DNA of 64,000 nucleotides. Origin: Ancylobacter koreensis. Its GTDB lineage: Bacteria > Pseudomonadota > Alphaproteobacteria > Rhizobiales > Xanthobacteraceae. The stretch's first letter is position 1, and each line of letters starts with the position of its first letter. The position numbers and the translations under genes were made by a program. The stretch is from contig NZ_JALKCG010000001.1 of NCBI RefSeq assembly GCF_023016525.1, forward strand, positions 992,001 through 1,056,000. The letters are read 5' to 3'. Below, in pieces: positions 13,611 to 41,040 of this stretch. A model generated the notes under the pieces. It ran no database searches, was not told where the DNA came from, and saw only the letters and a list, made by a program, of their open reading frames with translations.

Positions 13611-13704
13611 CGTCATCCCCGGGCTTGACCCGGAGATCCACGACTTCGTTGGCACTTGTACCCGGACCAAGACGTGGATGGCCGGGTCAAGCCCGGCCAT
13701 GACG
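13611..13704. repeat. Dispersed double-palindrome repeat, type A
   Basis: About 94 bases made of two back-to-back hairpins. The first is CGTCATCCCCGGGCTTGACC with its complement, ending in GATCCACG. The second begins CGTGGATGGCCGGG and ends GGCCATGACG. The outer ends are inverted copies of CGTCAT. Further copies occur at 30718, 34527 (reversed) and 40958. Confidence 0.82.
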
Positions 13705-30020: not shown

Positions 30021-30168
30021 GGCGCATCCCGACTGTGGCCGCCACCTGCGATGGGGATCCGCATCGGGGTGGGGCACTGGGGCGCAACATGAACTTTGGA
30101 GGGGTTCCGATCAACCCGGCAAAGTCCCGACGCGGCGATCGGGCGCGCCTATCGGAAAAAGCCGCCGC

Positions 30169-30693
30169 TCACGTCTGCGCGAGCGCGCGCACCTGCGCCA
30201 GCGTCATCGGCAGGCTGGCGCGGCCGTCGAAATAGACGAAGCGCAGCGTGCGCCGACGCGAGACCATGGCGGCGGGCAGCGGGTCGTAGCGGAAGCTGCC
30301 GCCGCCCAGATGCGGCATCACCGCGCCGACATCGGTGGTCTCGCCGGTCTCCACCCGCAGCAGGCTGACTCTTGTGCCCTCGGCCGTCGCCGCGTCGAAG
30401 GGGATGCGGGCGAGGCGCAGGAAGCTGGTCGGGTCGCTCGCCGAAGCGAAGCCCTCGACGAAGGCCTTCTCGACGAGATCGAGATCGGGCTCGCCGTGCG
30501 AGGGCTCCTCCGGCTCCGGCCCGTGCGGCAGATGCGGGGTCTGCCACTGCGCCGCCGGGCGCGGCGAATGGCCGTGATTATGGCCGTGGGAATGAGCGTG
30601 CGAATGGGAATGCGCATGCGCGTGCGGGGCATCGTGGCCATGCGAATGCCCGCCCGCGCCGTGGTCGTGAGAATGGTCGTGGCCGCGGTGCAT
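30169..30693 (-). CDS. Histidine-rich protein, candidate metal-binding accessory protein
   Basis: Protein of 174 residues that I do not recognise as a named family. The first 43 residues hold 18 histidines in H-x-H runs (such as HGHDAPHAHAHSHSH), like the His-rich tails of HypB, CobW or SlyD that store nickel, cobalt or zinc. The remaining about 125 residues look folded: DLDLVEKAFVEGFASASD, LRLARIPFDAATAEGT and DGRASLPMTLAQVRALAQT. No signal peptide or membrane segment is present. It lies 134 bases downstream of the predicted guanidine hydrolase in the same direction, with a type A repeat between, and upstream of hemA. A role in metal delivery to the hydrolase is inference. Confidence 0.75.
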   Translation of the reverse strand: MHRGHDHSHDHGAGGHSHGHDAPHAHAHSHSHAHSHGHNHGHSPRPAAQWQTPHLPHGPEPEEPSHGEPDLDLVEKAFVEGFASASDPTSFLRLARIPFDAATAEGTRVSLLRVETGETTDVGAVMPHLGGGSFRYDPLPAAMVSRRRTLRFVYFDGRASLPMTLAQVRALAQT

Positions 30694-30717
30694 CGCGGTG
30701 CCTCCAATTTTCGCCGT

Positions 30718-30802
30718 CGTCATCCCCGGGCTTGACCCGGGGATCCACTTTTTCCCTGGCCGGTCCAAGACGTGGATGGCCGGGTCAAGCCCGGCCATGA
30801 CG
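30718..30802. repeat. Dispersed double-palindrome repeat, type A
   Basis: About 85 bases: CGTCATCCCCGGGCTTGACC hairpin, a short spacer, then the CGTGGATGGCCGGG...CCATGACG hairpin. It sits between the ureohydrolase and the His-rich gene, both read leftwards, so it would lie inside a shared transcript. Confidence 0.82.
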
Positions 30803-30827
30803 ACCAACAGATGCCTGCGACAATGGC

Positions 30828-32033
30828 TCAGTAGCTCACCGGCTTGTCGATGATGTGCTTGTGGCTGCCGAGCTTGCCGTGCGCCACCATGGAGCCGAGC
30901 GCCTCGACGACGACGCGCAGGCCAAACAGCGCCGTGATGTCGGAGGTGTCGTAGGGCGGCGAGACCTCGACCACTTCCAGCCCACACAGGCCTTCGGCGG
31001 CTACCAACCCGAGGATCTTCAGCGCCTCGCGCGGCAGGAAGCCGCCTGGCTCCGGCCAGCCGGTGCCCGGCACGAAGCCGCAGTCGATGCTGTCGACGTC
31101 GAAGGAGATGTAGACCGCGTCGGCGTCCTTCCAGGCGAGCTCCAGCGCGATCTCGGCGGTCTTCTCCAGCCCGATCTTCTCGATGTCGTCGATGGTCAGC
31201 ACGTTGGTGCCGCGCTTGCGCGCCTCCTGCACGCCGTAGCGCGGAACCTGCCAGCCGCCGATGCCGAGCTGGACGAGGTTCTTGGGCGAGACGTTCGGCA
31301 GGTTCGTCGCCCAGTACCAGGGCGTGGTGTGCATGCGCTCGTCGAGATCCTTTTCCTGGATGTCGATGTGGCGGTCGAAATGGATGATGCCGATGCGCTT
31401 GGAGGTGCATTCGGCGATTCCGCGCACGCAGGGAAAGCCGATGGAATGATCGCCGCCCAGCATGATCGGCAGCGCGCCGGAGGAGAAGACGTGGCTGACG
31501 CCCTTCGAGATCTGGTCGAAGCTCTTTTCGAGGTTCGCCGGAATGGTGAACACGTCGCCGGCGTCGCACAGCGTCATCTGCTCGCGCAGGTCGACGCCGA
31601 GCTCGTAATTATAGGGCGTGTAGAGCGCGGAGATGCGGCGGATGCCCTGCGGCCCGAAGCGCGTGCCGGGGCGGTAGGTGGTGCCGCTGTCGAAGGGAAT
31701 GCCCAGCACGGCGGCGTCGTATTTGCCGACATCGCGCACATTCTCGACATAGGGCGCCTTGAGGAAGGTGTTGATGCCCGCGAAGTGGGGCAGCTCGCCG
31801 CGCGCGAAGGTCGGGATCGACTTGTCGTTGATGGAATCGGCGCCGGGCAGGCCCATGTCGAGCGCCCATTGCTGCTCCTTGCGCCAGCCATTCTCGGAGA
31901 GGCCTTCCTCGGCCTCCAGCGCCTTCCAGCCCTGCATCCCCTTGATCTCGAAATTGGGATGGTGGCGGCGCAGGCGGCGGGGGGCGGGGACGAGGCCCGC
32001 AAAGCGGGTGGAACGCTGGGGGAAGTGACGCAT
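30828..32033 (-). CDS. Ureohydrolase, probable guanidine hydrolase (GdmH-like)
   Basis: Arginase/agmatinase-family hydrolase of 401 residues, cytosolic. Metal ligands are present: His196 in GGDHSIG, Asp220, His222 and Asp224 in HFDRHIDIQ, Asp312 and Asp314 in SFDVDSID. It differs from standard agmatinases (about 300-330 residues) by a long N-terminal extension, by DRHID in place of DAHTD, and by SIDCGFVPGTGWPEPGG in place of the usual ALDPAFAPGTGTPEPGG. The known nickel-dependent guanidine hydrolase of cyanobacteria is also a long ureohydrolase of about 390 residues. A guanidine-I riboswitch lies in its leader, which argues for guanidine (to urea and ammonia) and not agmatine as substrate. 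ATG 32033 has GGAG seven bases ahead. Confidence 0.85.
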   Translation of the reverse strand: MRHFPQRSTRFAGLVPAPRRLRRHHPNFEIKGMQGWKALEAEEGLSENGWRKEQQWALDMGLPGADSINDKSIPTFARGELPHFAGINTFLKAPYVENVRDVGKYDAAVLGIPFDSGTTYRPGTRFGPQGIRRISALYTPYNYELGVDLREQMTLCDAGDVFTIPANLEKSFDQISKGVSHVFSSGALPIMLGGDHSIGFPCVRGIAECTSKRIGIIHFDRHIDIQEKDLDERMHTTPWYWATNLPNVSPKNLVQLGIGGWQVPRYGVQEARKRGTNVLTIDDIEKIGLEKTAEIALELAWKDADAVYISFDVDSIDCGFVPGTGWPEPGGFLPREALKILGLVAAEGLCGLEVVEVSPPYDTSDITALFGLRVVVEALGSMVAHGKLGSHKHIIDKPVSY

Positions 32034-32131
32034 GCCGTGTCTCCATGGGCCCCTAAGTGGGCCGAAGGGTCCTTCGACGGCGCTGCGGCAGACCCCGGTT
32101 CGCGCCGGAAGATCTGCGCCGCGACCGCCGC

Positions 32132-32262
32132 CGCGCGAGCCTCCCGGGCTTTTGTCCCGCCGTGGACCCGGCGCAGGGAGCGACCGCCGGGCTGCCCCTC
32201 TCGGACCAGACGCGCCGCGCAGCCAAGGCCGCAGGCGCCGGAACCCTAGGGACATTTGCCCC
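32132..32262 (-). ncRNA. Guanidine-I (ykkC) riboswitch
   Basis: Read on the minus strand, the leader contains the conserved ykkC blocks in the right order: CTAGGGTTCCGG, a variable stem, CTGGTCCGAGAG with CAGC after it, a second variable stem, then ACGGCGGGACAAAAGCCCGG followed by GAG. These blocks are the guanidine-binding core. The aptamer ends about 100 bases before the ureohydrolase ATG. In the expression platform a GGCCC / GGGCC hairpin (minus strand, about 32046-32062) lies directly in front of the GGAG ribosome site, so translational control is plausible; no T-run terminator is seen. Confidence 0.88.
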
Positions 32263-32353: not shown

Positions 32354-33019
32354 CTATTTGGTGCCGAAGATGCGGTCGCCAGCGTCGCCGATGCCCGGCA
32401 CGATGTAGCCGTGGTCGTTCAGATGGCTGTCGACCGCCGCCGTGTAGACCGGCACGTCGGGATGGGCTTCCTGCATCGCCTTGATCCCTTCCGGCGCGGC
32501 GATGAGGCAGACGAACTTGATCGACTGGCAGCCCGCCGCCTTCACCTCGGACACCGCCGCCGCCGCCGAATTGCCGGTCGCCAGCATCGGGTCGAGCACG
32601 ATGGCGGTGCGCTCGGAGATGTCGCGCGGCAGCTTGAGATAATATTCGACCGCCGCCAGCGAGACCGGATCGCGGTAGAGGCCGATATGGCCGACCCGCG
32701 CCGCCGGCAGGATGTCCAGCATGCCTTCGAGGATGCCCCCGCCGGCGCGCAGCACCGAGACGAGGCAGAGCTTCTTGCCCGCCAGCATCGGCGCCTGCAT
32801 CGTCGTCAGCGGGGTGTCTATCTCGACCAGTTCGGTCGGCATGTCGCGCGTCACCTCATAGGCGAGCAGCATGCTGATCTCGCGCAGGAGCTGGCGGAAC
32901 TCGTTGGCCGGGGTGCGCGAGCGGCGCATCAGGGTGAGCTTGTGCTGGATCAGCGGGTGGTCGACCACCACGGTGTTGGCGGTCGGGGCGGCCTCTGTCG
33001 GGACGGTGGGCGCGTTCAT
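32354..33019 (-). CDS. upp: Uracil phosphoribosyltransferase
   Basis: Converts uracil and PRPP to UMP; 221 residues. The N-terminal variable arm is followed by [50 protein letters not shown], the PRPP-binding loop [16 protein letters not shown] and the C-terminal [13 protein letters not shown], all standard for Upp. ATG 33019 is the natural start; the ORF extends further upstream into the intergenic region. It is divergent from urc1, and in the yeast-type URC pathway uracil phosphoribosyltransferase (Urc6) is itself a required step, so here upp probably feeds uracil breakdown as well as salvage. Confidence 0.95.
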
Positions 33020-33108
33020 GGTCGCGGCTCTCTCAGGTCTGTGGCGCGGCGTGCGGCGACGGCCGACGCCCTCCTCCGGGGCAGGATAGCGCGAATTGCG
33101 ATACAAGA

Positions 33109-33134
33109 AATGGACCATTCCGTCCGAAATTTCG
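33109..33134. promoter_or_regulatory. Palindromic operator candidates between upp and urc1
   Basis: Two perfect palindromes lie in the 216-base divergent intergenic region: AATGGACCATT (33109-33119) and CGAAATTTCG (33125-33134). Their centres are about 16 bases apart. They are AT-rich against a GC-rich background. They could bind a regulator of the uracil genes; the regulator is not encoded nearby. Confidence 0.45.
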
Positions 33135-33235
33135 CTTCCCGCCGCCCGCCCCCCTTGCGGAGCGGGGGAATTCGCGCTCACATCCGTTGCTTGCAGCACG
33201 CCGGCAACGGTGCCGGATGCAGAAGCGAGCCAGAC

Positions 33236-34504
33236 ATGTCCGTCAATGCCAATGCAGGCGGTCGTTCCCGCAACCATATCGTCCTTACCTCGCACGGGGC
33301 GTCGACCGGCGTAAATGCCGATGCTCCGGCGCTAAACTGGGGTGCGCCGAACCCGGCCGAGCGCGGGCCGGTGGTCGCCACCCTCACCGATACGCAGCGC
33401 CGCAACGCCATCGGCGCCCATGCCGGCGGCTATTCGGTCTACCGCGCACTCGCCATCGCGGCCGGCGCGTTGCCGGCCGACTTCAAGGCGGACCTGACCA
33501 ACACCGCGCCGTCCGATCCGATAGGCCCGCACCCGCAATGGGGCGACCCGAGGCGCATCGTCTCGCTCGACCCCTATGGCCACATTGCCGGGCAGGTGTT
33601 CGCCGACGCCATCGCCGCCGGGCTCGACGTGCGCCCGAGCATCGCCATCACCCGCGCCCATATCGACATGCCGGAAATCCGCGACGCCATCCGCGCCGGC
33701 CGGCTGCGCATCGACGGCGACATCATCTCCTCCAGGGGCGACGTGCGCGTCACCAAGGCGGCGATCGATCCGGTGTGGTACCTGCCGGGCATCGCCGAGC
33801 GCTTCGGCGTCTCCGAGGGCGCGCTGCGGCGGGCGCTGTTCGAGCACACTGGCGGCATGTTCCCGGAGCTGGTGACGCGCGGGGACCTCAAGGTCTTCCT
33901 GCCGCCCATCGGCGGCATGACGCTCTACATGTTCGGCGACGTGGCCAAGATCGGCGACGGCGTGACCCCGCTCGCCTGCCGCGTGCATGACGAGTGCAAC
34001 GGCTCGGACGTGTTCTCCTCCGACATCTGCACCTGCCGGCCCTATCTCGCCCACGGCATCGAGATGTGCGTGGAGATGGCGCAGCAGGGCGGCGTCGGCC
34101 TCGTGGTCTACAACCGCAAGGAAGGCCGCGCGCTCGGCGAGGTGACCAAGTTCCTCGTCTACAACGCCCGCAAGCGGCAGGAGGGCGGCGACCTGCCCGA
34201 AACCTATTTCAAGCGCACCGAATGCGTCGCCGGGGTGCAGGACATGCGTTTCCAGGAGCTGATGCCGGACGTGTTCCACTGGCTCGGCATCGCCAAGATC
34301 GACCGCTTCGCCTCGATGAGCGACATGAAGTTCAACGCGCTGGCCCGGGCCGGCATCGAGGTGGTGGAGCGCGTGCCGATCCCCGACGAGCTGATCCCGC
34401 AGGATGCGCGCGTCGAGATGGAGGCGAAGGTCTCGGCCGGCTATTACGGCGTCGGCTTCCGCAGCCAGTACGACGAGACGCAGGGCCGTGCGCTGAAGGA
34501 ATAG
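33236..34504 (+). CDS. URC1-type GTP-cyclohydrolase-II-like protein of uracil catabolism
   Basis: Protein of 422 residues related to GTP cyclohydrolase II but longer, matching the URC1 group that acts in the URC uracil-degradation pathway. The RibA-like domain is in the C-terminal half: [19 protein letters not shown] with the three zinc cysteine/histidine positions, [27 protein letters not shown] (the R-x-E-G-R-x-x-G-like catalytic part) and a long tail. The N-terminal 200 residues ([35 protein letters not shown]) are specific to the URC1 group. ATG 33236 is chosen; the ORF continues upstream without similarity. The neighbours upp and urc4 support the pathway assignment. Confidence 0.88.
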
Positions 34505-34526
34505 GGTCTTCTTGCCCCCTTAGCAC

Positions 34527-34618
34527 CGTCATGGCCGGGCTTGACCCGGCCATCCACGTCTTGGTGCTGGCGCGGCGCTGCAAAGTCGTGGATCCCCGGG
34601 TCAAGCCCGGGGATGACG
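34527..34618. repeat. Dispersed double-palindrome repeat, type A (reverse orientation)
   Basis: CGTCATGGCCGGGCTTGACC hairpin first and the CGTGGATCCCCGGG...GGATGACG hairpin second, the reverse complement order of the other copies. It lies in the 168-base gap between urc1 and urc4, which are read in the same direction. Confidence 0.82.
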
Positions 34619-34672
34619 GTTGGTCTCTCTTCGCCGGGGAGAGGCCTTTTTTCACCGAGGATGCTGCCCGAC

Positions 34673-35914
34673 ATGACCGTGCCCGAACTCGCCGCCGAAC
34701 TCGCCGCCCTGCGCTCGCCCGCCGCCGTCCGCGCCCGCAGCCATCAGGTGCTCGACCATGTGCGCGCGGGGAAGTCGCCGCATTTCGCGCTCGACGAGGC
34801 GGCGCTGGACGCGGTGGCGGACTATGTGGCGCAGGTGACGCGGCAGGACTATCCCGCGCTCGACATCCCCTATCACAGCCGCTGGCGCCATTTCGACGCC
34901 GGCGGGGTCGCCCGCTGGGACGCGCTGAAGGCGCGGCTCGGCGCGGTCGGGCGGGACGACCTCGCCCGCCTGATGATCGATCTCGCCGTGGTGAGCGTGC
35001 TGCTCGACGCCGGGGCGGGCGATGCCTGGCGCTACCACGAGGAAGCGACCGGCCTCACCCTCGGCCGCTCCGAGGGGCTGGCGGTGGCGAGCCTGCGCAT
35101 GTTCGAGGCGGGAGGCTTCTCGTCCGATCCGGCGCAGCCGCTGCGCGCCGACGCGGCCGCGCTGATCGCTCTCGATGCGGGCACGCTCGCCCGGCATTTC
35201 CAGGTCTCCGACGCCAACCCGCTGGTTGGCCTCTCCGGCCGCGTGGCGTTGCTCAACCGGCTCGGCGCGGCGCTGGCCGCGCGTCCCGACCTGTTCGGCA
35301 GCGCGCCGGCGCGGCCGGGCGGGCTCTATGACGCGCTGGTGCCGCAGGCGCGGATCGGCCGGCTGCCGGCCGAGCGCATCCTGAGCGCGCTGCTCGACGG
35401 CATGTCGGTGATCTGGCCGTCCGGGCTGGAGGTGGCGGGCGTCTCGCTCGGCGATGTCGGCCGGCACCCGGCGGTGCGCGTCGCCGATCTCTCCGACCAG
35501 CTCGTACCGTTCCACAAGCTCTCGCAGTGGCTGACCTATTCGCTGCTGGAGCCGTTCGAGGCGGCCGGGCTTGCCGTCACCGATCTCGACGCTCTCACCG
35601 CGCTGCCGGAATACCGCAATGGCGGGCTGCTGGTCGATCTCGGCGCCATCGTGCCGCGCGCGCCCGTCGATCCCGCGCAGAAGCAGGCGGTGTCGTCCGA
35701 GCTGGTGGTGGAGTGGCGCGCGCTCACCGTCGCGCTGATGGACCTCCTCGCCGACCGGGTGCGCGCGCGGCTCGGCCTCGATGCCTCGCAGTTTCCGCTC
35801 GCCAAGCTGCTGCAGGGCGGCACCTGGACGGCGGGCCGCCGCATCGCCGCCGAGCGCCGCCCGCCCGCCGGCCCGCCCCCCATCGCCATCGACGCCGACG
35901 GCACGGTGTTCTGA
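34673..35914 (+). CDS. URC4/Urg3 family protein (DUF1688), uracil catabolism
   Basis: Protein of 413 residues of the URC4/Urg3 family, needed for uracil breakdown in the URC pathway; the exact reaction is not settled. Family blocks visible: RCxx-less N-terminus MTVPELAAELAALRSPAAVR, DIPYHSRWRHFDAGG, WRYHEEATG, SDANPLVGLSGRVALL, HPAVRVADLSDQLVPFHKLSQ (split here over two lines of the fold), WLTYSLLEPFEAAG and PEYRNGGLLVDLG. Cytosolic, no signal peptide. ATG 34673 is preferred over 34661 because CGAGG is then at a usable distance. It follows urc1 across a type A repeat. Confidence 0.88.
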   Translation: MTVPELAAELAALRSPAAVRARSHQVLDHVRAGKSPHFALDEAALDAVADYVAQVTRQDYPALDIPYHSRWRHFDAGGVARWDALKARLGAVGRDDLARLMIDLAVVSVLLDAGAGDAWRYHEEATGLTLGRSEGLAVASLRMFEAGGFSSDPAQPLRADAAALIALDAGTLARHFQVSDANPLVGLSGRVALLNRLGAALAARPDLFGSAPARPGGLYDALVPQARIGRLPAERILSALLDGMSVIWPSGLEVAGVSLGDVGRHPAVRVADLSDQLVPFHKLSQWLTYSLLEPFEAAGLAVTDLDALTALPEYRNGGLLVDLGAIVPRAPVDPAQKQAVSSELVVEWRALTVALMDLLADRVRARLGLDASQFPLAKLLQGGTWTAGRRIAAERRPPAGPPPIAIDADGTVF

Positions 35915-38388: not shown

Positions 38389-38433
38389 TTCCTTGACGTG
38401 CATCCGCAGCAGCAGGGGAGCTGTGCCGCCGAC

Positions 38434-39528
38434 ATGTCCAAGGGCGCCGACATCGAGCTCATCCATGTCACCAAGCGCTACGGCGCGGCCCTCGCGGTCG
38501 ATGCCGTGTCGCTGAAGATCCCGGCCGGCACCTATTGCTGCCTGCTCGGCCCGTCCGGCTGCGGCAAGACCACGACGCTGCGCATGATCGCCGGCCATGA
38601 GAGCATCACCGAAGGCGATGTGCGCCTCGGCCCGACGGTCGTCACCGACCTGCCGCCGGCCCGGCGTGGCACGGCGATGATGTTCCAGAGCTACGCCCTG
38701 TTCCCCCATCTCGACATCGTCGACAATGTCGCCTTCTCGCTGAAGATGAAGGGCGAGGAGAAGGCGAGCCGCCGGGCGAAGGCGATGGAGATGCTCAAGC
38801 TGGTGCAGCTCGACCATCTGGCCGAGCGGCGCCCCGCACAGCTTTCCGGCGGCCAGCAGCAGCGCGTCGCGCTCGCCCGCGCGCTGATTACCGATCCGCA
38901 GGCGCTCCTCCTCGACGAGCCGCTCTCCGCGCTCGACCCGTTCCTCAAGATCAAGGTGCGGCAGGAGCTGAAGAAGCTGCAGCTTCAGCTCGGCATCTCC
39001 TTCATCCACGTCACCCACAGTCAGGAAGAAGCGATGGCGCTCTCCGACCTGGTGGTGGTGATGAATGGCGGGCGCATCGAGCAGGCGGCCACCCCGCGCG
39101 AGGTGTTCAACCGGCCGGCCACCGCCTTCGTCGCCCGCTTCATGGGCGACCACAACGTGCTGGCGGGCCGCGTCACCGATGTGGCGGACGATGCCGTGAC
39201 CTTCGAAGTGCCGGGCGGCGCCTCCTTCCGTGCCCCCGCCGGGCCGGGGCTGGAGCCGGGCGCGCCGGTGGAGATCGCCGTGCGCACCGACCGGGTGCGG
39301 CTCGGCGCCGGCGCCATGGCCGGCTGCGGGCTGACCGGGCTCGTGCAGAACATCGAGTATCACGGCCAGAAGGTGCAGGTGGCCCTCGCCGCGCCGGGCG
39401 TCGACGAGTTCTCCGTGCAGGTGTCGGAGACCGCCTTCTTCGAGGCGCCGCTCGCCGTGGGCGACGCGGTGCCGATCGCCTGGACGCCGCAGGACGTGCA
39501 CATACTGGAGGCCTCGCCCTCGGCCTGA
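38434..39528 (+). CDS. ABC transporter ATP-binding protein, polyamine (PotA) type
   Basis: ATPase subunit of 364 residues. Walker A is GPSGCGKTT, the signature [15 protein letters not shown], Walker [12 protein letters not shown], and the switch histidine in [10 protein letters not shown]. The Q-loop is [13 protein letters not shown]-terminal TOBE-like domain (about 245-360) follows, as in PotA/FbpC transporters. ATG 38434 has GGGGAG about 12 bases ahead; a GTG at 38398 is possible. It is the first gene of a four-gene transporter operon (ATPase, binding protein, two permeases) and is preceded by a sigma-54-like promoter. Confidence 0.9.
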
Positions 39529-39606
39529 GCCGGCCGCCGCAAGCCTATGCCGACGCCTTCGTCCCTCACAGACGCAACACCGACCAGAGACGCTCGGGAG
39601 ACACCA

Positions 39607-40938
39607 ATGAGCCAGAAGACCACGGATCGCACCGGCGCCGCGGGCGCCAACAAGGCAGCGGGCAAGCAGGCGAAGGGCCTGAGCCGCCGCTCCGTGCTGA
39701 AGGGCGCCGCCGCGCTCGGCGGCCTCGCCGCCGGCAGCGGCGCCGTCACCGGCTTCCCCACCATCTGGGCGCAGAACCCGATCACGCTGCGCCAGTTCGG
39801 CACCGGCGTCTCGAACCTCAACGCCATCGCCGAGAAGTGCAAGGCGGACCTCGGCATCACGCTGCAGATGACCGCGCTGGATTCCGACGCGGTCTCCCAG
39901 CGCGTCGTCACCCAGGCCAATTCCTTCGACGTCGCCGACATCGAGTACTGGATCTGCAAGAAGGTGTTCCCGGCCGGCACGCTGCAGCCGATGGATGTCA
40001 AGAAGATCAAGTTCTACGACCAGATCGTGCCGATCTTCACCACCGGCAAGCTCACCCCCGAATCCAAGATCGCGCAGGGCACCGCGCCCAACACGGTGAG
40101 CTTCGTCGAGGGTGCGGACTCCAAGAAGTTCTCGCCCACCCCGACCCAGTGGATGACGCTGATCCCGACCATCTACAACGCCGACACGCTCGGCATCCGC
40201 CCGGACCTCGTCGGCCGTCCGATCAAGAACTGGAAGGACATTCTGGATCCCGCCTTCAAGGGCAAGACCTCGATCCTGAACATCCCGTCCATCGGCATCA
40301 TGGATGCGGCGATGATCTGCGAGAGCGCGGGCATCGCCAAATATGCCGACAAGGGCAACATGACGAAGGCGGAGATCGATACCACCATCGATTTCCTCAT
40401 CAAGACCAAGAAGGCCGGCCAGTTCCGCGCCTTCTGGAAGACCTTCGACGAGAGCGTAAACCTGATGGCCTCGGGCGAGGTGGTCATCCAGTCCATGTGG
40501 TCGCCGGCGGTGGCGGCGGTGCGCTCCAAGGGCATTCCCTGCGTCTACCAGCCGCTGGAAGAGGGCTATCGCGCCTGGGGCGGCGGCCTCGGCCTCGCCA
40601 AGCACCTCAAGGGCGCGCAGCTCGACGCCGCCTATGAATACATCAACTGGTATCTCTCCGGCTGGGTCGGCGCCTACCTCAACCGGCAGGGCTACTACTC
40701 CGCCGTGCTGTCCACCGCCGAGAAGTACATGACGCCGGACGAATGGGCGTTCTGGATGCTTGGCCAGCCGGCCAAGACGGACATTCTCTCGCCGGAAGGC
40801 AAGGTGATGTACACGGCCGGCGCGGTGCGCGACGGCGGCTCCTTCCAGGACCGCATGGGTGCAGTGGCGTGCTGGAACTCGGTGATGGACGAGGACCGCT
40901 ACATGGTTCGCCGCTGGAACGAGTTCATCGCCGCGTGA
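39607..40938 (+). CDS. ABC transporter substrate-binding protein, PotD/PotF-like, Tat-exported
   Basis: Periplasmic binding protein of 443 residues. Its N-terminus has a twin-arginine signal, SRRSVLKGAAALGGLAAG, so it is exported folded, perhaps with a cofactor or after binding. The mature part belongs to the spermidine/putrescine-type binding proteins (ADIEYWICKKVF, IPTIYNADTLGIRP, NWKDILDPAFKGKTSILN, GEVVIQSMWSPAVAAVRS, YEYINWYLSGWVG). GGGAG is seven bases before ATG 39607. The real ligand could be a polyamine, a guanidino compound or another cationic solute. It is followed by a type A repeat and then the permeases. Confidence 0.88.
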   Translation: MSQKTTDRTGAAGANKAAGKQAKGLSRRSVLKGAAALGGLAAGSGAVTGFPTIWAQNPITLRQFGTGVSNLNAIAEKCKADLGITLQMTALDSDAVSQRVVTQANSFDVADIEYWICKKVFPAGTLQPMDVKKIKFYDQIVPIFTTGKLTPESKIAQGTAPNTVSFVEGADSKKFSPTPTQWMTLIPTIYNADTLGIRPDLVGRPIKNWKDILDPAFKGKTSILNIPSIGIMDAAMICESAGIAKYADKGNMTKAEIDTTIDFLIKTKKAGQFRAFWKTFDESVNLMASGEVVIQSMWSPAVAAVRSKGIPCVYQPLEEGYRAWGGGLGLAKHLKGAQLDAAYEYINWYLSGWVGAYLNRQGYYSAVLSTAEKYMTPDEWAFWMLGQPAKTDILSPEGKVMYTAGAVRDGGSFQDRMGAVACWNSVMDEDRYMVRRWNEFIAA

Positions 40939-40957: not shown

Positions 40958-41040
40958 CGTCATCCCCGGGCTTGACCCGGGGATCCACGTCTTTCCGCCG
41001 GAAGCCGGCGTGGATGGCCGGGTCAAGCCCGGCCATGACG
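40958..41040. repeat. Dispersed double-palindrome repeat, type A, inside the ABC operon
   Basis: CGTCATCCCCGGGCTTGACC hairpin, spacer, then the GTGGATGGCCGGG...GGCCATGACG hairpin. It fills most of the 127-base gap between binding protein and first permease, where a hairpin would raise the ratio of binding-protein to permease mRNA. Confidence 0.82.

Follow-up and report, generated by a model that had tools for sequence, protein, structure and literature searches.

Riboswitch-controlled guanidine hydrolases (GdmH) have already been published, as far as the available text of three papers goes (PMC8390497, PMC11410670, PMC12186494). In Synechocystis, the gdmH operon encodes nickel-delivery proteins that are required for activity, according to the accessible part of PMC12186494. 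The available portion of PMC11410670 reports that N. inopinata lacks nickel chaperones, and its authors call the nickel loading of the guanidinase unclear. The same portion gives the metal ligands of this enzyme as H182, D207, H209, D211, D299, and D301, and its markers, which are proposed specificity residues, as T105, H222, W313, and E344. Guanidinases under riboswitch control are thus known, and what would be new is the nickel route of the alphaproteobacterial guanidinases.

The locus described here lies in the window, which is the whole 64,000-nucleotide stretch of DNA that was analysed, from the soil bacterium Ancylobacter koreensis (Xanthobacteraceae). Its riboswitch-GdmH system adds one more member to a kind already known. 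The riboswitch-gdmH pairing named in the initial annotation holds up and is nothing out of the ordinary; the locus is of interest for a companion gene and a lost importer. The gene downstream of gdmH, which was absent from that annotation, is its conserved companion, and its product is named here GHP (GdmH-linked histidine-rich protein). The features of the locus are as follows.

32139..32260, minus strand: guanidine-I (ykkC) riboswitch aptamer, from the RF00442 match and compensated pairs
32034..32138, minus strand: presumed expression platform, the stretch from aptamer to start codon, read from the sequence
32041-32044, minus strand: GGAG (Shine-Dalgarno), 7 nt ahead of the gdmH ATG
30828..32033, minus strand: gdmH, predicted guanidine hydrolase (guanidinase) of 401 aa, ureohydrolase family, from PDB matches, PF00491, metal ligands, and markers
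30716..30804, no strand assigned: palindromic repeat with two 38-nt arms between gdmH and GHP, from a repeat search
30169..30693, minus strand: GHP, 174 aa, candidate nickel-delivery factor, from linkage and composition
30166..30185, minus strand: terminator-like hairpin at the GHP end, from a consensus scan

It is proposed, with a probability of roughly 0.8, that these elements form a guanidine-controlled catabolic or detoxifying unit in which the riboswitch would govern GdmH, GHP would deliver nickel, urease would take over the urea, and the importer has been lost. Free guanidine would bind the guanidine-I aptamer in the leader and switch the downstream gene on, a direction that is taken from the known behaviour of the guanidine-I class. 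GdmH, predicted from homology and marker residues to be nickel-dependent, would split guanidine into urea and ammonia, and a urease encoded elsewhere in the genome would convert urea into ammonia and CO2. The His-rich tail of GHP probably binds Ni2+, and its C-terminal domain probably docks on GdmH. Judging from linkage, composition, and the lack of HypA, GHP would stand in for the HypA/HypB-type loaders of the Synechocystis enzyme. In Ancylobacter, the ABC importer that usually lies between the riboswitch and gdmH would have been lost from the operon.

Riboswitch, probable guanidinase, and the possible fate of urea

The initial annotation had placed the ykkC/guanidine-I blocks in the ureohydrolase leader and named a covariance search of the leader as a check. 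The Rfam search of the whole window gave an RF00442 match above threshold at 32260-32139 on the minus strand (80 bits, gathering score 63, E 1.2e-12). The aptamer is complete, with model positions 1-107 covered, and a local RF00442 search (E 9.8e-15) found the conserved blocks intact, as that annotation had it. A genome-wide Rfam search showed that this aptamer is the sole guanidine-I riboswitch of the 4.06 Mb genome. An alignment was made of 16 leaders with the riboswitch right next to gdmH, one from the window and 15 from relatives. Of the 35 predicted pairs, 12 had compensated changes, meaning that both sides were altered and the pair was kept in at least one sequence. At the level of sequence, the 32260-32139 aptamer is confirmed as a guanidine-I riboswitch, and guanidine binding and control of the downstream gene are predicted for it.

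The mode of control was sought in the stretch between the aptamer and the start codon. An intrinsic terminator was rejected as the expression platform, since the consensus scan found no terminator-like site on the minus strand between the aptamer and the gdmH ATG. The folding of the leader was not above that of shuffled sequences in stability (z 0.18; z -0.68 for the 32034..32138 stretch), and for this reason no switching structure is proposed. Transcriptional control is given for the guanidine-I class in the available text of PMC11410670, whereas no intrinsic terminator was found in the window leader. Control of gdmH is guessed to be translational or Rho-dependent.

Among all PDB sequences, the closest to the 401-residue enzyme was the Synechocystis guanidinase (7esr/7oi1; 541 bits, E 1.2e-161), followed by the N. 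inopinata guanidinase (9fek; 525 bits, E 1.6e-156). The third match was a guanidinobutyrase with 177 bits (E 6.6e-51), and the top chain named agmatinase reached E 2e-39. When 12 alphaproteobacterial homologues were aligned against the PDB, solely 7esr/7oi1 and 9fek were found at E<=1e-60. The Pfam Arginase family (PF00491) spans residues 106-379 of 401, and this late start shows that the long N-terminal extension noted earlier is real. All six metal ligands, which the initial annotation had described as kept, were located by hand-mapping on the PDB alignment (H196, D220, H222, D224, D312, and D314). The four marker residues were found in the same way (T119, H235, W326, and E356). The residues equivalent to T119 and W326 define an "inferred guanidinase" in the available part of PMC11410670. 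When related proteins were scanned for the T and W motifs with a regular expression, 97 of 98 matched, the single miss being a Rubrobacter protein, and 50 pattern matches in viral contigs included no GdmH relatives. The enzyme carries the motifs DRHID and SIDCGFVPGTGW. The earlier description of DRHID and SIDCGFVPGTGW was right as to their presence, and it erred in calling them unusual, because in the PDB alignments both solved guanidinases carry HFDRHVD and FVPGTGWPEPGG. The DRHID and FVPGTGW motifs are, as judged from these alignments, the ordinary GdmH signature. By homology, it is near certain that the enzyme is a guanidinase, as had been suggested earlier in place of agmatinase, and very probably it converts guanidine into urea and ammonia.

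Within the N-terminal extension of GdmH, an HHP motif was also observed at about residues 19-28 (window 32033-31950, minus strand). It is present in 96 of 98 GdmH proteins, the remaining two being undecided owing to the anchor used, and is invariant in the 12 aligned proteins. As a docking site for GHP, the motif was rejected, because it is non-discriminating and also occurs in one Rubrobacter protein without a GHP-like neighbour in its record.

Urease alpha and UreG genes are encoded on another contig (C14) of the same genome, so urea can go further. A genome-wide comparison with TIGR02712 found no urea/guanidine carboxylase over the cut-off; the best match had 561 of the required 1304 bits, and the partial matches, nine in number, fell mainly on the biotin-carboxylase end. 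Since urease genes are present and no carboxylase exceeds the cut-off, hydrolysis followed by urease is the route visible in the genome. The earlier statement that no guanidine carboxylase lies nearby thus extends to the genome as a whole at this cut-off, and the statement that no small multidrug exporter lies nearby agrees with the genes identified between about 27.5 and 41 kb. It is a fair inference that hydrolysis is the main guanidine response here.

Importers near gdmH

Gene order was compared in the best 80 of 578 related loci, which belong to close relatives, so that counts over them are not independent; Fisher tests on these counts take no account of relatedness and carry no weight here. 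A complete ABC importer, with an NMT1-type binding protein, a permease, and an ATPase, lies upstream of gdmH in 60 of these 80 loci. The arrangement of the window, in which the riboswitch lies within 400 nt of gdmH and the importer is absent between them, was found in 15 of the best 80. Fourteen of these importer-free loci are Ancylobacter-type, and the other belongs to Hansschlegelia (L086). The riboswitch motif was recognised by sequence upstream of gdmH in 76 of the 80. Two of the four motif-less loci (L088 and L109) are cut off upstream, and the other two (L080 and L105) have room and contain none by Rfam. The Rfam search was run on six of the 80 loci and agreed with the motif calls, two with and four without. 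In A. gelatini (L045), the importer is retained at the same chromosomal place. On the simplest reading, the importer was lost within Ancylobacter and separately in Hansschlegelia. The unusual feature of the window locus is this missing importer. Such repeated loss would allow guanidine use and guanidine detoxification to be compared in nature.

Other transport genes are found in the window and the genome. PotA/PotD-like importer genes lie at 38422-40938 on the plus strand and beyond, forming a PotABCD-like set 7-9 kb from gdmH on the other strand. The window PotD shares 89-94% identity with a gene upstream of gdmH in 14 Ancylobacter-type loci; in 11 Mesorhizobium loci, a gene with 74-80% identity to it is found about 4.6 kb downstream of gdmH. 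It is possible that these genes, which occur near gdmH in two arrangements, encode an importer of guanidine or of a guanidino compound. A second importer set (G000:C11:86701-89557; L152 6771-9557) is 50-59% identical to the guanidine-operon importer and is without a guanidine-I riboswitch. The best SBP relative in the window genome is 50% identical, with a permease and an ATPase adjoining, and the genes around it are presumably of a purine-type catabolic kind. This importer set is taken for a paralogue of the gdmH-operon importer. Adjoining the riboswitch at 32357-35914 are genes for a uracil phosphoribosyltransferase, a GTP cyclohydrolase II-like protein, and DUF1688. They recur in Ancylobacter-type loci and are taken by us to be URC uracil-degradation genes.

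GHP, its linkage to gdmH, and alternative readings

In 79 of the best 80 of 578 loci, gdmH is followed directly, in the same orientation, by GHP; in the exception (L098), a copy lies 8.2 kb off on the opposite strand. The median gap between the two genes is 10 nt across these 79 loci, 59 of which have a gap of 30 nt or less. In the window, the gap is 137 nt and holds the palindromic repeat. This repeat also occurs near 13676, at 34525-34620, and at 40958-41012 of the window, looks REP-type, and is probably outside the mechanism. The consensus scan found no terminator-like site between gdmH and GHP on the minus strand. It returned four sites against 1.3 (sd 1.3) in shuffles, one of the four (30254-30240, minus strand) lying inside GHP. 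There is weak evidence that gdmH and GHP may form one transcription unit.

The co-occurrence of the two genes was followed in three samples of genomes. In the sample of Alphaproteobacteria (n=385), gdmH (E<=1e-100) was found in 11 genomes and GHP (E<=0.001) in 13, and all 11 are within the 13. The two GHP-like matches without gdmH at this threshold are a fragment (G322) and a gene beside a broken importer gene (G561). In the family sample (n=198 genomes, 12 of them of the genus of the window), gdmH and GHP occurred in one identical set of 13 genomes; two extra GHP matches at E 5e-4, which cover 27 and 76 of 160 positions, are probably due to chance. The phylum sample (n=398) had gdmH in seven genomes, with GHP beside it in all seven. 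The three samples overlap; pooled, they contain 27 different gdmH genomes, all Alphaproteobacteria, and GHP is present in 27 of 27. GHP without gdmH occurs in few genomes. Outside this class, two Rubrobacter plasmids with gdmH have no GHP-like neighbour annotated. The linkage of GdmH and GHP could come from merely travelling together. At the G561 locus (L133, contig C49), the GHP-like frame has its His-rich stretch at the C-terminal side and adjoins a truncated importer binding-protein gene without gdmH, so that either a guanidine operon has decayed there or the assembly is at fault.

GHP starts with MHRGHDHSHDHG... and consists of a His-rich tail (residues ~1-45) and a conserved C-terminal domain (residues ~70-170). 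It had no family match in Pfam (E<=1), NCBIfam, or PHROG, and is thus not assigned to the HypA or HypB families by Pfam or NCBIfam. In two Rhodobacterales plasmid records it is labelled "hypothetical protein", and in the open-access literature no paper was found on a His-rich protein beside gdmH. The tail has a median of 17 His in 86 homologues, with 1 to 27 among the rows listed, the start codons of the more distant homologues being guessed in this count. Short tails have 1 His in 14 residues (L131) or 3 His in 16 (L129). The tail is nearly lost in some relatives, and therefore bulk nickel binding is not the essential part everywhere. Alignment A1 consists of 51 of the 79 gdmH-adjacent copies and the window copy, and in it no His or Cys of the C-terminal domain is invariant. 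Four loci were left out of the GHP sequence set (L034 and L046, where the frame runs into the next gene; L066, with a run of N; and L093), and L092 was misanchored. In the structural model, the C-terminal domain is predicted with high confidence as a helix-helix-beta fold (mean pLDDT 93-97 for residues 71-120); the disordered tail lowers the mean pLDDT of the whole model to 75. A GHP profile gave five matches among PDB sequences, with a best E of 0.79. Foldseek returned 327 matches for the model at E<=10 and none at E<=0.001, the best (0.026) being a mitoribosome assembly chain.

A known nickel loader was sought in the window genome, which is 99.31% complete in 19 contigs, so that a gene missing from it is not absent beyond doubt. 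HypA was not found there, by a search that gave a match in 7 of 14 control genomes. Among the gdmH genomes, HypA was absent from 21 of 27 and present in 6. The window genome has seven PF02492 matches. NCBIfam names the top five as one UreG and one CobW over the cut-off and three CobW-like proteins below it; no HypB over the cut-off was found among these five strongest GTPases (best 65.7 of 121.2 bits, the UreG). The two weakest matches (L120 and L121) are presumably Era and MeaB. A HypA/HypB loader was accordingly rejected for this genome, with HypA not found and none of the five named GTPases over the HypB cut-off. Permeases of the HupE/UreJ family are linked to nickel uptake. Among the best 80 of 578 loci, 32 have such a gene no more than 1.5 kb downstream of gdmH and 9 have one no more than 2 kb upstream; the window gdmH locus has no HupE neighbour. 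From linkage, composition, and the lack of a known loader, it can be inferred that GHP may be a nickel-delivery factor dedicated to GdmH. The tail can be reduced, invariant His or Cys residues are missing from the domain, and HypA occurs in six of the gdmH genomes, which argues that the domain matters in its own right; most simply, its role would be docking on GdmH.

Alternative readings concern the enzyme, the source of guanidine, and the role of GHP. An agmatinase, arginase, or guanidino-acid hydrolase behind a riboswitch that only reports by-product guanidine is highly improbable. Close relatives do carry the automatic label "agmatinase family protein", but among the solved ureohydrolases the two guanidinases are by far the nearest to the window enzyme, which has both T119 and W326, the residues that the available text of PMC11410670 requires. 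It also does not reach the NCBIfam agmatinase models (157.6 against 174.3 bits for TIGR01230, 208.2 against 302 bits for NF002564) and falls below the formimidoylglutamase and arginase cut-offs. Together with the PDB scores and an identity of 33-38% to the four other ureohydrolases of the genome, these cut-offs led to the rejection of an agmatinase or arginase identity. On another reading, the Ancylobacter unit would detoxify guanidine made inside or leaking in, rather than use guanidine as imported nitrogen. Consistent with this, 15 of the best 80 of 578 loci, of which 14 are Ancylobacter-type, have no importer between riboswitch and gdmH, and the only guanidine-I riboswitch of the genome stands at gdmH. 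However, the related importer elsewhere (SBP 50% identical) or the PotABCD-like set 7-9 kb off could carry guanidine, and urease is present in the genome. Detoxification is a tentative reading, held at somewhat less than even odds.

As for GHP, it may instead belong to GdmH as a subunit, activate or stabilise that enzyme, or store nickel, with the His tail as a secondary metal buffer. What is common to all homologues is the C-terminal domain and not the tail, which can shrink to a single His (L131), and neither His nor Cys is invariant in the domain; both points speak for this alternative. Against it stand the median of 17 His, the HupE/UreJ genes that neighbour gdmH in a total of 41 among the best 80 of 578 loci, and the lack of HypA in 21 of 27 gdmH genomes, and it is rather unlikely. 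Slightly favoured overall is the reading of GHP as the first of a new class of GTPase-free, dedicated nickel-delivery proteins, with a variable His-rich tail and an unclassified C-terminal domain, which would load alphaproteobacterial GdmH in place of HypA/HypB and hence would serve as a marker gene for guanidine hydrolysis there. N. inopinata is reported to lack nickel chaperones and the two Rubrobacter plasmids have no annotated GHP-like neighbour, and therefore some GdmH proteins manage without. By tracking gdmH, GHP would give a handle on the nickel-loading question raised for the N. inopinata guanidinase in the accessible text of PMC11410670. Its absence would also be a likely reason for under-metallated guanidinases when these are expressed alone, and its gene would be a marker that separates guanidinases from "agmatinase family protein" annotations.

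Comparison with described systems

UreE, HypB, and SlyD are nickel metallochaperones with variable His-rich tails. GHP resembles them in being small and cytosolic-looking, in having a His-rich tail whose length varies, and in being encoded beside a nickel enzyme. Unlike them, it has no sequence family match, no significant fold match, and no GTPase domain.

Synechocystis sp. PCC 6803 has a GdmH (Sll1077) with the same motifs as the window enzyme. Its operon, like that of most alphaproteobacterial relatives, has a guanidine-I riboswitch upstream and NitT/SsuA-type ABC transporter genes, according to the available parts of PMC8390497 and PMC12186494. The accessory genes there are hypA and hypB (PMC8390497, available text), whereas the window operon has neither and HypA is absent from the genome. 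The window operon also differs in having no transporter genes, and it has GHP instead. The N. inopinata locus resembles the window in its guanidine-I riboswitch, its GdmH-type enzyme (9fek), a urease elsewhere, and no HypA/HypB-type loader reported in the available text of PMC11410670. In contrast to the window, an APC permease adjoins its riboswitch, and GHP is unmentioned in that text. The metformin hydrolase operons (MefH/DmgH), as described in the accessible part of PMC11399263, are similar in encoding nickel-dependent ureohydrolases with a HupE gene downstream; they differ in that the enzyme is heteromeric, acts on another substrate, and needs for its activation HypA/HypB encoded beside it.
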